NCBI GenBank assembly: GCA_027621295.1
Contig: JAQCBR010000004.1
Location: 1 to 64,000, forward strand
Direction of reading: 5' to 3'
DNA: 64,000 nucleotides
Origin: Planctomycetota bacterium
Lineage (GTDB): Bacteria; Planctomycetota; UBA1135; UBA2386
Shown here one piece after another: positions 32,159 through 46,815 of this stretch (positions within the stretch are counted from its first letter, which is position 1; each line of letters starts with the position of its first letter). Made by a program: the position numbers and the translations under genes. Under the pieces are notes generated by a model, which worked only from the letters and a program-made list of their open reading frames with translations, made no database searches and was not told where the DNA came from.

Positions 32159-34846
32159 ATGATCCGCCTGCTGACCACCCTGCTGGCCGCCCTCTGGCTG
32201 GCCCAGACCGGCTTCGCCCAAGAGGGCGATGCCGAGTCGAAGGTCTCTCTCCGCGCCGCGTTCGTGCCGACGACCGCGAAGCCAGGGGAGGAGGTCCTGC
32301 TCCGCATCACCCTCGGGATCGCCGATGGCTGGCACCTCTACGGCAGGGACGAGGAGATCGGCGCGCCGCCGAGCCTGACGGTGAAGGAAGCGGCCGGGCT
32401 CGAGGCCGTGGGGCCGACCTCGGTGCCGCTCGGGGAACCGCACGAGACGGCCGGCATCCTCAGCTACTGGGTCACAGGGACCGCGGTCGTCGAGCAGAAG
32501 TTCCGCGTGCCCGCGGCCGCGGCGGGGACGCTCGCACTCGAGGGCGTCGTCGACTTCATGGTCTGCGACGAGTCGACGTGCCTGCCGCCCGAGACCCGAG
32601 CGTTCCGGACGGAGCTCACGGTCCAGGGTGCGGAGAAGCCGAAGGCCACGATCCCGACGCCCACCGCGGACCAGAAGGTCACGTTCGGAGCGCGCATCGA
32701 GCCGGCAGACGTGGCGCCGGGCGGGGAGGCCGAGCTCGTCGTCGACCTCAGGATCTTCCCGGGCTGGCACGTCTACGGCGCCCTCGAGGAGGTCGGCATC
32801 CCGACGTCGCTGAGCCTGACCGGCAGCGCGGTCGAGAAGGTCGGTGCCGCGAGCGTCCCGGACGGCAACCGCCACGATGCGGGCGGCTTCGAGAGCTACT
32901 GGGTCGAGGGCGAGATGGAGATCCGCCAGCGGTTCCGCGTGCCCGCCGACGCGCAGCCCGGCGCCCTCGCGGTCGGGTTCACCGTCGACTACATGACCTG
33001 CGACGAGGCCAGCTGCGACCCGCCGGGACAGCTGGTCGGCGAGGCGACGTTCACGGTCGCCGCGAGGTCGGTCCCCATGATCGGCATCGGAGGTGCGATG
33101 GGAATCGCCACTCCGACGCAGGACCCGTTCGGGTTCGGCGATCCCGCGCCGAAGTTCGAGGCCCGGTTCGAGCCCGAGCGGAGCCGCGCCGGCGAGACCG
33201 TCGACCTCGTGGTCCGCGTCTCGGTCCCCGACGGCTGGCACGTCTACGGGGCGCGGGACGAGAACCCGATCAAGGTCAGCTCGTCGGGCAGCCTCGAGGC
33301 TGAAGGCCCGAACCGCCTCCCGGACGGCAAGCTGCACGACACGGCAGGACTCGAGAACTACTGGCTGACCGGCGAGTTCGAGATCCGCCAGGCCTACCGG
33401 GTCCCCAGCGACGCGAAGGAGGGCGCGCAGGCCGTCCCGTTCGCCGTCGACTACCTGCTCTGCGACGAGTCGACGTGCCTGCCCCCCGCGTCCGAGATGC
33501 TCGAACTCGACCTCGTCGTCGAGGCGGGGCCCGCGCGCTCCGAGTACGGGGGCGTCGGCGGCGAGGAGGGCGGCTGGCTGGCGTTGCTCCTGGGCGCCGT
33601 CGCAGCGGGTCTGTTCGCACTGCTGATGCCGTGCACCTACCCGATGATCCCGCTGACGATCTCGATGTTCACGAAGCAGGCCGAGGCGCGCAGTGGGAAG
33701 GTCCTGCCGGTCTCGCTGACCTACGGTGCCGGGATCGTGCTGAGCTTCGTGCTGATCGGTGAGCTCGTCGGGCCGCGGATCGTCCCGTTCGCGACGCACC
33801 CGGTGACCAACGGCGTGATCGCGGTCGCGTTCCTGTTCTTCGCGATGTCGCTGTTCGGCTTCATCACGCTCGAGCCGCCGCGTTTCCTGATGAACGCCGC
33901 CGGCAAGGCGCAGACCAAGGGCGGCTACATCGGCGTTCTGCTGATGGGCGCCACCCTGGTCATCACGTCGTTCACGTGCACCGTGCCGTTCGTCGCGAGC
34001 CTCCTCGCGCTCGCAGCCCAGGGCGGCCACGCGCAGACGATCGTCGGCATGGCGACGTTCGGCCTGACGATGGCGATCCCGTTCGTGATCCTGTCGCTGC
34101 TCCCCTCCCGCGCGCGCGGCATCCCGCGCGCCGGCGAGTGGATGAACCAGCTCAAGGTCTTCATGGGCTTCGTCGAGCTGGCGGCCGCGCTGAAGTTCGT
34201 CAGCAACGTCGACGTGGTCCTCAACGACGGCCCGCTGTGGCTGAGTCGGACGACGTTCCTCTGGTCGTGGGCCGGGATCTTCGCCGCCGCGACCGCCTAC
34301 CTCGGGCGGTCCTACCTCGCCGCCCACGGCCGACGGACCTGGAAGAGCGCCGCCGGCACGCTCGCGACCCTCGCGCTGGCCGCGTGGTGCGGATTCGGCG
34401 CGACGGGCCAGGATCTCGACCCGGTCCTCACCGCGATCGCCCCGCCCAACTCGAAGACCGAGTCCAAGGCCACCCACACGATCGTCAAGGACGACTACCA
34501 GCTCGCGCTCGACACGGCCAAGTCCGCGGGGCAGCTCGTGTTCGTGAACTTCACCGGCTTCACTTGAGTGAACTGCCGCGTAATGGAAGAGCAAGTCTTC
34601 CCGAGCCCGGCGGTCGCCGAGCTCCTGACCAACGGATACGTCGAAGCCCGCATCCACACCGACCACCGCGAGCTCGGCGAGCAGAACCGGACGCTCCAGA
34701 AGGACATGGTCGGATTCGTCTCCGCGCCCTACTACCTGATCGTCGACCCGGCGACCGGGAAGAAGCTCGCGGAGCACAAGCTCGAGGGCGTCTCCGACGG
34801 CTGGGACCAGATCCGCGACAAGTTCGCGGCGTTCCTGCGCCGATAG
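32159..34846 (+). CDS. dsbD: DsbD-like thiol:disulfide interchange selenoprotein (UVNC active site)
   Basis: One 895-residue frame interrupted only by a TGA at 34565..34567 (residue 803). Order: signal peptide (1-20); three tandem DsbD-alpha-like domains (about 25-165, 170-315, 335-465), each with a WH(L/V)YG start and a CDExxC pair; an eight-helix DsbD-beta/CcdA-type membrane domain with Cys in LMPCTYPM (near 492) and SFTCTVPF (near 607); a C-terminal thioredoxin domain. There the text reads FVNFTGFT-TGA-VNCRVMEE, where relatives have FTGxTCxNCR. The TGA thus replaces the first redox Cys, and Cys806 remains. A stem-loop at 34585..34601 fits a bacterial SECIS. Conventional calling would end the gene at 34567 and lose the thioredoxin domain. 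Role: passing electrons from the cytoplasm to envelope thiol proteins. Confidence 0.9.
34585..34601 (+). promoter_or_regulatory. Putative bacterial SECIS element of the DsbD-like gene
   Basis: Perfect 6-bp stem GGAAGA/TCTTCC closing a GCAAG loop, 17 nt after the TGA; the loop begins 23 nt after it, with G first. This matches the known bacterial SECIS layout (stem-loop shortly downstream of UGA, G in the first two loop positions). The segment uses rarer codons (GTA, CAA) for this GC-rich genome, as if RNA structure were selected. Confidence 0.75.
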
Positions 34847-42354: not shown

Positions 42355-42417
42355 TCAGCTGTCCGTGAGGAGCCTTCAGCTACCTGCGAAGAGCCTTCAG
42401 CCGTCCGCGAGGAGCCC
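42355..42417. repeat. Three tandem 21-bp repeats at the end of the TlpA-like selenoprotein gene
   Basis: Three imperfect 21-bp units (42355-42375, 42376-42396, 42397-42417) of the type TCAGC-N6-CGAGGAGCCT. The third unit encodes the last residues of the TlpA-like protein (GLLADG) and its TGA. Because 21 is a multiple of three, read in the gene's direction each unit ends in an in-frame TGA, so three TGA stops follow each other at 7-codon intervals. Confidence 0.85.
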
Positions 42418-43386
42418 GGCGAGGTGGGACGCGCGCGCAGCGGCCTTCGTGCCGGCGTGCTTCTCGGCGAGCTTGGTCAGCGCGCGCGGCGGCACCGCGT
42501 CGTCGCCCTTCGCGAACAGCACCGACTCGAGCTTGCGGAGCGCCTTCTCGGCCTTCCGTTCTTCCTCCAGCGCATCGTCCTCGAGGCGATCCCGCAGCGG
42601 CTCGACCAGCGCCTCGAGCGCATCGCTGCCGTCGACCGCCTTCTCGAATTCGTCGAGCAGGTCTTCGGCACGGAGGTAGCTGCCTTCGTCGATGAGCCTG
42701 CCGATGCGGGCAGCTGATGCGCTGGCTCGACCGGACGCGTCGGCCGCGAGGGCTCGCGCCGCAGCAGCGAGCTCCGCATCCTCGGTCTTCTGGATCAGCT
42801 TCTCGGCTTCGGTCGCCGCCGATCCGAACCCGCCGCGCAGCAGGTCGCGCGCCGCATCCTTCAGATCCTTGGGAGCGTCCTCGGGCCCGCGGCGGATCTT
42901 CTGGACCTCGGCGGCGATCGCTTCCTCCATCTGGGACGCGAGCCGGATCGAGCTGCCCTCGAGGATCGGACGGCCATCCACATCCAGCAGCACGAAGCTC
43001 GGCAGGCCGCTGCTCGTGTTGCGGACGGGTCGTTCACTGGTCCAGAGGGCCTTCCCACCGAACCACTTCCGCTCGAGCCCGTAGCGCTCGATCTCCTCGG
43101 CGCCGTGTCCCTGGGACTCGACGAAGATCACCTGGAGCGCGTCGCCGAACTCTTCCTGGAGCTTGATCGCCATCGGCACGGATGACGAGATGCAGGGGCC
43201 TCAACGTCTGCCCCAGAACTCGATGAGGACCGGGCGCCCCCGCAGATCGGAAAGCCGGGAGACCCCGTCGAGGTGGAGCGATCGGGACTGGAACTGGAAC
43301 TCGGCCGGCTTCGCGGCCGCCCCGTCCTGGCACGGTGCGACGACGCTGGCCAGCAGGCCGATCGCCGAGGTGAGGTGGATACGCAT
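42397..43386 (-). CDS. TlpA-like thioredoxin-family selenoprotein (UGPC active site), exported
   Basis: One 329-residue frame interrupted only by TGA at 43203..43201 (residue 62). The first part carries a signal peptide (about 1-18) and the redoxin start LSDLRGRPVLIEFWGRR. After the TGA the frame continues GPCISSSVPMAIKLQEEFGD, the exact continuation of a FWxxWCGPC motif, so the protein has U62-G-P-C65. A cis-Pro loop (SGLPSFVLLDVDG, near residue 124) completes the thioredoxin fold. The C-terminal ~200 residues are helical, highly charged and of unknown role. A SECIS-like hairpin follows the TGA. A normal caller would give a 61-aa fragment and a separate 260-aa protein starting at a GTG (43179). 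Likely function: periplasmic disulfide reduction, possibly fed by the DsbD-like selenoprotein. Confidence 0.88.
43167..43188 (-). promoter_or_regulatory. Putative bacterial SECIS element of the TlpA-like gene
   Basis: Read on the minus strand, an 8-bp stem TCGTCATC/GATGGCGA (one G-U pair) closes a 6-nt loop CGTGCC. It starts 12 nt after the TGA; the loop begins 20 nt after it and has G at its second position. This fits the bacterial SECIS rules for distance, stem length and loop. Confidence 0.75.
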
Positions 43387-43492: not shown

Positions 43493-44017
43493 ATGTCCGT
43501 CACACCGAAGCGCATCGCCCTGATCTCGACCGGCGGCACGATCGAGAAGACCTACGACGAGCTCCAGGGGGTGCTGCAGAACCAGGTCAGCAACCTGGAC
43601 GTGCTGCTCGCGTCGCTGCGCCTCGAGGGGGTCGAACTGGTCCGGGTGTCCCTGATGAACAAGGACAGCCTGGAGATGACCGACGGTGACCACCAGCTGA
43701 TCGCCGAGACCGTGGGCAGCATGGCGGCCCATCACGACGGCGTCGTCGTCGTCCACGGCACAGACCGTCTCGCGGAGACCGGCGAGCGCATCGTCTCGGT
43801 GCTGGGCACGCCGCGGGTCCCCGTCGTCCTGACCGGTGCGATGCGCCCGTTCGTGATGCGCAACACCGATGCGACCCAGAACCTGACGGAGGCCCTGGTC
43901 GCGGTCCAGATCTGCACGCCCGGCGTCTACGTGGCGATGCACAACCAGGTGCTTCGCTTCCCCGGCGTGACGAAGGACCGGACGCGCATGACGTTCACAC
44001 GCTCCGGTCCTGCGTGA
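43493..44017 (+). CDS. Short (single-domain) asparaginase-like protein
   Basis: A 174-aa protein matching the N-terminal domain of L-asparaginase. It has the first catalytic Thr in STGGTIEKTYDE (near residue 15), the second Thr-Asp pair in VVVHGTDRLAETG (near residue 85) and the TGAMRPF segment with Arg in place of the more usual Gln-Asp region. The C-terminal domain of the 330-aa enzymes is missing. Similar one-domain versions are common in bacteria, so this is probably a complete gene rather than a truncation. Asparagine hydrolysis is inferred. Confidence 0.82.
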   Translation: MSVTPKRIALISTGGTIEKTYDELQGVLQNQVSNLDVLLASLRLEGVELVRVSLMNKDSLEMTDGDHQLIAETVGSMAAHHDGVVVVHGTDRLAETGERIVSVLGTPRVPVVLTGAMRPFVMRNTDATQNLTEALVAVQICTPGVYVAMHNQVLRFPGVTKDRTRMTFTRSGPA

Positions 44018-44119: not shown

Positions 44120-46609
44120 TCACGGCAGGATCGCCTGCAGCTGCGCGCGCGTCGCCGCGATGATCTCGGTCACCCAGCCCGGGTTGTGGACACCACCGCT
44201 CTGGTCGTTGTGGATCAGGAAGTAGTTCCACTGCGCCTTGGCCAGGATCTCGTCGTTGGTCGAGAACCCGTTCGCGAGCAGCGTGCCCGCCGGCGTCCCC
44301 AGGTCGAGGATGGCGGTATCGCTGTTCAGGCGGCAGTGACTCACGTGGATCAGGCCAGCGCCGTTGTCGACGTCGATGTCCATCGCAGCCCTGCCGTGTG
44401 ACTCGGTCAGATGGACCTCGCCGACGACCGAGGTCGCACCGATCACCATCGTGACGGGGTTGCCGGCCAGATCGCTGCCCGACACCCGGACCTCACGACC
44501 CGCGGCGACGTGCATCGCGATCTCTGCACGCAGAGCGTCGACGTAGAGCAGCTCGACGTCGTGGAGAGCGCGCTCGGTGTTCGCGATCAGCGAGGCTGGA
44601 TCGAAGCCACCGTGGCATGCGGTGCACGCTTCGGCCGTCGCGGTGAACGAGTGGTTCGTCCCGCTCAGGTTGTAGCTGAGGTCCGCAGGCGGAGGCGTCC
44701 TGGCCACGTGGCAGCTCGCGCAGGTGTCCTCGATGAGCGAGTGCGGCCCGCGGACACCCGTGGTCACGAAGAACGCGTTGTAGCCGAGGAGCACGTCGCT
44801 CTGTGCGCCACCGTGCGGCGCGCGGTCCGGAGTCGAGGTGATGACCTCGTCCGCCTCACCACGCCGGGTGTTGTGGCAGACGATGCACTGTGCGCCCTTG
44901 CCGACGCCGATCGCGGTGAAGCCACCGAGCAGCTCCGGCGTGTCGCCCTCGAGCCGCATCGTCACGTCGTTCTCGTTGCCGGAGCGCGTGCCGACGTTGT
45001 GCGGATCGTGGCAGACCACACAGGTGATCGGCTGGGCCTCGTTGGGATCGACGCTGCTGCCGCGGAAGTCGGCCTCGTAGCCGTTGTTCGCCCACTCCAG
45101 GAAGCCCTGGGCGGTGTGGCACTTCGCGCAGCTGCCGCTGGTCTGGCTGATCGCCACTTCGAAGTTGCCGTGCCCACTCTCCAGCCACTGCTGGTAGCGG
45201 GCGTGCCGCGGCGGCTCGCCGTGACAGGTCGCGCAGACGCCGGCCGACACGCTGATCCGTTTGTCGCCCAGCGTGTGGGCACTGCCCGGACCGGTCGGGC
45301 CGTGACAGCTGTCACACTGGACGTTGGCCATCGCCGCCTGGTCCGGCCAGTTCGCGATCACGTCCGCCCAGTTGTCCGGGTCCGGATGGCTCTGCCCACC
45401 GGGGAACATCTCGTCGAGGAACGCGGCGTAGTTGCTCGTGCTGTCGAAGCCGTCCTTGTGGTAGCCGACCGTGTGGCACGCGAAGCAGTCCGGCCCATAG
45501 TGCCCACCCTCGTTGATCATGTTCGTGAAGATGTGCGCGTGACCCGTCGCCGACCAATCGGCGAACTTGTCCGCGTGGATCGTCGCGTGGCACGCGGTCT
45601 GGCACATCGTCTGGGGTAGCCCGTTGGCGTCCTGGCCCTCGATGGCGCCCCACCACTCGCCCGCACTGACCGCGATCGAGACCGCGGCTGTCGACTCGGT
45701 GATGACGTATTCGCCGATCGCATCCGGTACGAACCACGGGAACCGCGTGTTCGCGTCCATCAACGTCGCGGTCGATGCCGCAGGACCGCTGAGCTGCCAG
45801 GTGTAGGCCGACTGGATCGCGCCACCCACGAGGACCGGCACTCCGACCGGCAGGTTGCGCAGACCCGTGCTCCAGTCCGCGAAGTCCAGGTGCGCGTGCA
45901 CGTCGACGCTCTGCGTGTAGTTCCCGCTCGTCGTCGCGACCTCACACTGGAACGTGACGCTCGCAGCACGCTCGAACGCATAGGGATCGACCGCGAGGAC
46001 CTCGAAGCGGTCCTGGACCGGCAGGTAGCCGGTGAGCACGCGCTTGTATTCCGTGCGATCACCGAGCGTGATGTCCACGGTGTCCAGGTCCACGCCGATG
46101 AGACTCGCCTGGGCCGAGTTGGTCTGGGTCCACGTGAAGCCGAGGACGGTCGAGCCATCCATCGGACGCACGTTGGCCGACAGCTCGAACTGCTCACCAG
46201 GAGCTGCGTCACCCGGCGCTCCGGAGATGTCGATCAGAACCATCGCGACCGGCTGGAGACCGAAGTCGAAGGTCTGCTCGACGGCCGCCAGCACCGAGAC
46301 GCCGTGGTCGACCGCATCGAAGTCGTCGGCCGAAACCGTCAGTTCGTAGGTCCCGACCGGCAGTTCGGCCGAGTAGGCGCCGTCCGCGTCGGTCGTGATC
46401 TGGATACCCGGCAGAGCAGGAGAGAGGGTGATCGTCGCGCCCGCGATCGGCGCGTCGGCGTTCGCCGCGTTCGTCACTCGCCCCAGGATCGTGCCCTTGC
46501 TGACGCCCGGCACACCCTGTGAGCCGTCGTCGCCCGAGCATCCTGCAAGCATCAACGCGACCACGAGCAGCCCAGGATGCAGGCCGTGCCCGAAGGACTT
46601 GAGACTCAT
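44120..46609 (-). CDS. Multiheme c-type cytochrome lipoprotein with N-terminal carboxypeptidase-like domain
   Basis: An 829-aa exported protein. The ATG at 46609 is preceded by a good ribosome-binding site (GAGGTGG, 46615-46621), and a lipoprotein signal ends LAGCSGDD. Residues about 40-120 form a carboxypeptidase-regulatory-like beta domain (GRVTNAANADAPIAGATITL), followed by further beta domains. The heme part holds eight CxxCH motifs (CFACH, CDSCH, CATCH, CAKCH, CVVCH, CIVCH, CASCH, CTACH) plus one CQTACH (C-x3-C-H). Scattered His residues can serve as distal ligands. Likely role: periplasmic or outer-surface electron transfer; the redox partner is unknown. Confidence 0.88.
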   Translation of the reverse strand: MSLKSFGHGLHPGLLVVALMLAGCSGDDGSQGVPGVSKGTILGRVTNAANADAPIAGATITLSPALPGIQITTDADGAYSAELPVGTYELTVSADDFDAVDHGVSVLAAVEQTFDFGLQPVAMVLIDISGAPGDAAPGEQFELSANVRPMDGSTVLGFTWTQTNSAQASLIGVDLDTVDITLGDRTEYKRVLTGYLPVQDRFEVLAVDPYAFERAASVTFQCEVATTSGNYTQSVDVHAHLDFADWSTGLRNLPVGVPVLVGGAIQSAYTWQLSGPAASTATLMDANTRFPWFVPDAIGEYVITESTAAVSIAVSAGEWWGAIEGQDANGLPQTMCQTACHATIHADKFADWSATGHAHIFTNMINEGGHYGPDCFACHTVGYHKDGFDSTSNYAAFLDEMFPGGQSHPDPDNWADVIANWPDQAAMANVQCDSCHGPTGPGSAHTLGDKRISVSAGVCATCHGEPPRHARYQQWLESGHGNFEVAISQTSGSCAKCHTAQGFLEWANNGYEADFRGSSVDPNEAQPITCVVCHDPHNVGTRSGNENDVTMRLEGDTPELLGGFTAIGVGKGAQCIVCHNTRRGEADEVITSTPDRAPHGGAQSDVLLGYNAFFVTTGVRGPHSLIEDTCASCHVARTPPPADLSYNLSGTNHSFTATAEACTACHGGFDPASLIANTERALHDVELLYVDALRAEIAMHVAAGREVRVSGSDLAGNPVTMVIGATSVVGEVHLTESHGRAAMDIDVDNGAGLIHVSHCRLNSDTAILDLGTPAGTLLANGFSTNDEILAKAQWNYFLIHNDQSGGVHNPGWVTEIIAATRAQLQAILP

Positions 46610-46777
46610 CGTTTCCACCTCGTTCACGATGGGATGGGAGGGACGTCGCGAGCCGGAGACCGAGTCCCAGGCTTCGCATGTGTCCGAACCCGACGAGCGC
46701 CGTCTTGTTTCCGGTGCGGTGCTCCCAGCTGGACCGGAAACACCCGTTCCGGGCAATTCCGTGCGGCGACCCGGCTT

Positions 46778-46801
46778 CGGTATCGAGCCAGCTCGATACC
46801 G
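46778..46801. terminator. 10-bp perfect stem-loop between two minus-strand genes
   Basis: CGGTATCGAG / CTCGATACCG with a CCAG tetraloop. It lies 14 bp past the stop of the 46816..47559 gene and upstream of the cytochrome gene. No T-run follows, so it may be a factor-dependent terminator, an mRNA stabiliser or an operator for the cytochrome gene. Confidence 0.5.
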
Positions 46802-46815
46802 GGCTGCCTTCACGG

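Follow-up and report, generated by a model that had tools for sequence, protein, structure and literature searches.

Does the TGA that separates two open reading frames on the minus strand of a planctomycete contig end a gene, or is it read as selenocysteine (Sec) within a single one? In the window, that is, the whole 64,000-nucleotide stretch of DNA that was analysed, standard ORF finding yields a 61-aa piece (43201-43386) and a 260-aa piece with a GTG start (42397-43179), the two fragments that an earlier reading made from the DNA letters (hereafter, the sequence-only reading) had expected of a gene caller.

A Single Frame Interrupted at a Redox-Active Position

Followed on the minus strand, the frame opens with an ATG at 43386, runs for 61 codons to a TGA at 43203-43201, and continues for 267 further codons to a TGA at 42399-42397. 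The TGA at codon 62 is the sole interruption of this 329-codon frame (43386-42397). With this codon taken as Sec62, the whole selenoprotein gene spans 42397-43386 and comprises 329 codons and the terminal TGA; its translation has a hydrophobic N-terminus, the active site GRPVLIEFWGRR-U-GPC, GLPSFVLLDVDG in the cis-Pro region, and approximately 155 helical, charged residues. Sec62 (43201-43203) falls within an FWGRR-U-GPC active site and is paired with Cys65 (TGC, 43192-43194), the resolving cysteine of the UxxC pair, which is invariant in an alignment of homologues (A2). Sequence and frame were re-read, and the coordinates, the residue number 62, and the 329-aa product given by the sequence-only reading were all correct.

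Conservation of the TGA among Relatives

A homologue or paralogue was found in 87 of 101 genomes (the source genome and 100 relatives), and most of the matches contained exactly one in-frame TGA; matches were also counted in 101 of the 154 genomes of the class and in 53 of the 392 genomes of the phylum sample. A protein scan of a collection of named genome contigs returned no match. Sixty-one of the 70 loci that were read have an in-frame TGA, in each case at the active-site column, and all 69 aligned TGA homologues, other classes of the phylum included, carry it at the column of Sec62. Of these 69 sequences, 63 belong to the main family and six to a paralogous FWATW/FFATW-UGPC group. It could be supposed that a Cys or Trp codon became TGA in a pseudogene, or through a sequencing or assembly error, and that the gene is really the two fragments that gene callers see, the genome being a draft MAG. 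This explanation, to which we give a negligible probability, was rejected on the conservation of the TGA, whose column is shared by 69 homologues that represent many genera and several families and fall to 24-35% in protein identity; the downstream reading frame is likewise conserved, and the hairpin that follows the TGA covaries.

In alignment A2, which contains 33 sequences aligned over the full length and sharing 24-50% identity with the window protein, the invariant positions are G50, P52, W58, G59, residue 62, C65, V70, P71, Q92, P129, and G138. These residues flank the TGA on both sides, which indicates that both sides are constrained as one protein. Similarity upstream of the TGA, on which the sequence-only reading had staked its interpretation, was found in these relatives together with similarity downstream.

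Close homologues with no stop at the Sec column have Cys there in five cases (L043, L044, L045, L047, and L128b), which are the relatives with Cys at residue 62 that had been predicted, and Ser in one (L046, in genome G016), where the motif is FGMHSPPC and the second Cys alone is kept. Three remoter stop-free homologues (L143, L144, and L146) also have Cys at this column. Another set of stop-free homologues (L135-L142 and L145) has no UxxC or CxxC motif (e.g., WGHTTWGA or WTNTDFGR) and, judging from these motifs, apparently represents redox-inactive members. On a tree built with the Sec column removed, the minimum number of Sec/Cys/Ser changes was six, a count that cannot tell gain from loss and that comes from a quick tree with 23 of its 75 inner branches weak. 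The Cys forms are scattered among the Sec forms, and both occur within one genome in G034, G098, G059, and G310. This distribution would be read most simply as an ancient Sec form that was replaced several times.

The Cys paralogue found beside the Sec copy in these genomes, as if it were a back-up under scarce selenium, could also point to a selenium-sensing switch, in which inefficient decoding of the TGA makes the short product, or the fate of the mRNA, the regulated output. We consider such a switch very improbable, since the 267 downstream residues are conserved, nothing suggests selection of a short product, and one main-family member alone was found in the source genome of the window.

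A Covarying bSECIS Hairpin Follows the TGA

The reading as a full-length selenoprotein draws further support from a bSECIS hairpin at 43188-43167 (minus strand), which was recognised by folding, by covariation, and by comparison with published constraints. It starts 12 nt past the TGA, has the sequence UCGUCAUC-CGUGCC-GAUGGCGA, and folds into an 8-bp stem with a 6-nt loop, a G at loop position 2, and an MFE of -9.6 kcal/mol, with 20 nt between the TGA and the loop. The stem length, the loop G, and the 12-nt distance had already been noticed by the sequence-only reading and were borne out by the sequence and by folding. The published bSECIS model has a loop of 3-9 nt, a stem of 4-16 bp, a UGA-to-loop distance of 16-37 nt, an MFE <= -7.5, and a G at loop position 1 or 2 that mostly precedes another G or a U (PMC13188914). 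The hairpin lies within all of these constraints (loop, stem, G then U, UGA spacing, and MFE), but the family differs from other bSECIS elements in having its own loop, CGUGCC, which is nearly invariant within it.

Taken alone, the hairpin is moderately unusual (P ~0.015): when synonymous codons were shuffled at the codon frequencies of the gene, with the protein fixed, an equal stem length was reached in 1.5% of the recodings. The 63-nt stretch folded as a whole had no unusual stability (z +0.8). Across 49 distinct TGA genes, compensatory double changes occur at all eight stem pairs, and the stem covariation score is 0.414 vs. 0.140 (sd 0.017) in shuffles, with slid registers all between 0.04 and 0.16. 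RNAalifold independently picks the inner four stem pairs; the outermost pair is poorly kept among relatives. The loop letters GTGCC are present in 62 of the 63 main-family TGA genes, compared with two of the six Cys/Ser genes. Once relatives are compared, the position of the TGA and the hairpin lie far beyond chance.

Genome G310 carries a Sec copy (FWGTRUGPC) and, approximately 340 bp from it in head-to-head orientation, a Cys copy (FWGTRCPPC) (locus L128, C34:18191-20472). Over the same residues, AVP, the Sec copy keeps GCCGTGCCG, whereas the Cys copy has GCCGTCCCC, in which the conserved SECIS loop letters are altered. This difference at identical residues allows RNA-level selection to be told apart from protein-level selection.

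The Source Genome Has a Complete Sec Machinery

The source genome, a draft MAG of 4.59 Mb in 279 contigs and 90% complete, contains a tRNA-Sec with anticodon UCA (80 bits), selA (473 bits; cut-off 268), selB (312 bits; cut-off 242), and selD (350 bits; cut-off 125), all of which exceed curated cut-offs. The selD gene adjoins selA and itself has one in-frame TGA. The Sec machinery, the second point on which the sequence-only reading had made itself depend, is complete, and selA was found in 97 of the 101 genomes.

That the TGA is read through here might alternatively reflect a genome-wide reassignment of TGA (e.g., to Trp or Cys) in which selenocysteine has no part. However, the gene's own terminator is a TGA, the internal TGA occupies the place of a redox Cys, tRNA-Sec, SelA, SelB, and SelD are all present, and the conserved hairpin loop accompanies the TGA genes and not the Cys genes. 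Code reassignment was rejected on the complete machinery and on the use of TGA as an ordinary stop, and its chance of being correct is, in our judgement, vanishingly small.

Because the frame is open, the TGA is conserved at the redox Cys position, the bSECIS covaries, and the Sec machinery is complete, we regard it as nearly certain that 43386-42397 (minus strand) is a single gene for an exported TlpA/ResA-like selenoprotein, in which we infer that UGA is read as selenocysteine. The earlier interpretation of this locus as a TlpA-like selenoprotein with a UGPC motif is supported.

Other genes of the source genome also contain a TGA in a putative active site. Two more TlpA/Redoxin-like genes have one in-frame TGA each, within FFATW-U-GPC (C57:8472-9419; L058, L093) and FWGDW-U-GPC (C147:2810-3193; L092). 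In the window, a DsbD-like protein (DsbD_N, DsbD_TM, and Thioredoxin_7) encoded at 33005-34840 has an in-frame TGA at 34565 (plus strand) within FTGFT-U-VNC, and is presumably the other selenoprotein of the sequence-only reading. With these extra TGA genes, the number of candidate selenoprotein genes in the source genome rises to at least five, SelD included.

Domains and Probable Activity of the Protein

Residues 1 to ~20 (43327-43386, minus strand, as for the domains below) form a predicted signal peptide region, recognised by inspection as a hydrophobic N-terminus. An N-terminus of this kind is also seen in the A2 relatives, where it mostly ends close to a site of the A-x-A-Q type. Cys19 was considered as a possible lipoprotein residue, but this reading was rejected, as Cys19 is not conserved in A2. 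By sequence similarity, a thioredoxin-like (TlpA/ResA-like) domain extends over approximately residues 42-152 (42931-43263), with the invariant Pro129 at the cis-Pro position. Approximately residues 173-329 (42400-42870) form a C-terminal helical domain, identified from a structure model and from a weak match to the C-terminal end of VPGUxxT selenoproteins (NF041382), the only resemblance detected for it. This extra domain of ~155 residues was absent from the sequence-only reading.

The ResA model is matched by 33 of the 33 members, Redoxin by 26, and TlpA by 26 (ResA and Redoxin at E <= 0.01), and the window protein matches PDB 28db, a redoxin-domain protein, with an E of 6e-8. The window protein misses the Pfam cut-off for Redoxin (17 bits vs. 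26.6) and the NCBIfam cut-offs for ResA (21 bits vs. 170) and TlpA (18 vs. 230). The earlier designation as TlpA-like thus stands as TlpA/ResA-like by weak sequence similarity, but no Pfam gathering cut-off is reached. A single-sequence AlphaFold model was poor over the thioredoxin domain and showed the C-terminal domain as helical with good confidence; a Foldseek search with this model returned no significant match. Since the model is poor in that region, the assignment of a thioredoxin fold rests on sequence. Positions 62, 65, and P129 are invariant in A2, and with them, at the level of sequence, the UxxC active site and the Pro at the predicted cis-Pro position.

Sec is common in peroxidases, and the Pfam family that most members (26/33) match is Redoxin; the selenoprotein could therefore be a Redoxin/Prx-like peroxidase that reduces hydroperoxides, and not a disulfide reductase. 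This seems to us unlikely, since the UxxC motif that contains Sec is of the thioredoxin type, its second Cys is invariant, and a cis-Pro position is present; among NCBIfam models, most members match ResA (33/33) and TlpA (26/33), and there is no Prx-type TxxC/TxxU motif. From its sequence, the protein is best interpreted as a TlpA/ResA-like thiol-disulfide oxidoreductase that acts outside the cytoplasm and has a Sec-x-x-Cys active site together with a C-terminal helical domain. Its motif suggests that it is likely to act in the envelope, with Sec62 as the nucleophile and Cys65 as the resolving residue.

Comparison with Known Selenoproteins

Sec-containing UxxC TlpA-like proteins are an established kind (PMC1088965; Table 1 of PMC13188914). 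The UxxC thiol-disulfide isomerase-like/TlpA selenoproteins (cd02966; Sargasso Sea set in PMC1088965, catalogue in PMC13188914) share with the window protein a TlpA-type domain, Sec in place of the first Cys of CxxC, and a predicted redox function. Compared by description only, the catalogue entries differ in that no C-terminal helical domain or planctomycete family is given for them. The UGC-type TlpA selenoproteins (NF041054) have a UGC motif (WAxxUGC), whereas the motif here is UGPC, and the window protein scores 13.5 bits against a cut-off of 300. The VPGUxxT type 1 model (NF041382) is similar in length (349 positions) and in its C-terminal ~150 residues (E 1e-5), but the match reaches 25 bits against a cut-off of 350 and covers residues 173-323, without the active site; moreover, the motif of the window protein is FWGxxUxxC, and VPGUxxT is absent. 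With the Cys forms ResA, TlpA, and DsbE, the window protein shares W-G-x-x-[U/C]-x-x-C and the Pro at the cis-Pro position, its residues 43-90 matching the ResA and TlpA models; it differs from them in that Sec replaces Cys, WG-x-x-U stands where WATWC is usual, and a C-terminal domain is added.

No Pfam or NCBIfam model covers the family above its cut-off, and none of the papers searched describes it. The window protein thus apparently belongs to a widespread planctomycete family, uncatalogued in the sense of having no Pfam or NCBIfam model above cut-off, and of a UxxC kind that is already known.

Proposed Role in the Envelope

In the mechanism that we propose, the ribosome would insert selenocysteine at the in-frame UGA by means of SelB and tRNA-Sec, with the hairpin just downstream as the signal and with SelA and SelD supplying the Sec-tRNA. 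The N-terminal signal peptide would export the protein, whose fold is predicted to be a TlpA/ResA-like thioredoxin domain. Sec62 would attack and Cys65 would resolve, so that disulfides of envelope proteins are reduced (or exchanged), and a membrane thiol donor would return the oxidised Se-S form to the reduced state, a putative role for which the DsbD-like protein encoded ~8.6 kb away is a possible candidate. The C-terminal helical domain may bind a partner or a substrate.

The gene is alone on its strand, with neighbours at 43493 (asparaginase-like) and 40999 (TRAM/RNA-methyltransferase-like) on the opposite strand, and thus has no operon partner to help name the substrate. The window also encodes, at 44123-46813 (minus strand), an 897-aa protein that resembles multihaem cytochromes and contains MtrC/MtrF-like and cytochrome c7 domains. 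In the source genome, 16 PSCyt2 domains were found, a content that suggests Planctomycetota as the lineage.

It is possible that the DsbD-like protein at 33005-34840 is the redox partner of the thioredoxin-like selenoprotein. A fuller proposal, namely a distinct, uncatalogued selenoprotein family that is old in the planctomycete class, has undergone few Cys replacements, and is paired with the Sec-containing DsbD-like protein in a Sec-to-Sec envelope chain, is put forward as a tentative and rather doubtful extension.

A whole selenoprotein family has been missed by curated models, and gene callers would halve it across a bacterial class. The genomes with both Sec and Cys copies (G310, G034, G098, and G059) make it possible to ask, in a natural setting, why Sec is retained, and the gene points to selenium use by these planctomycetes in their envelope redox system.
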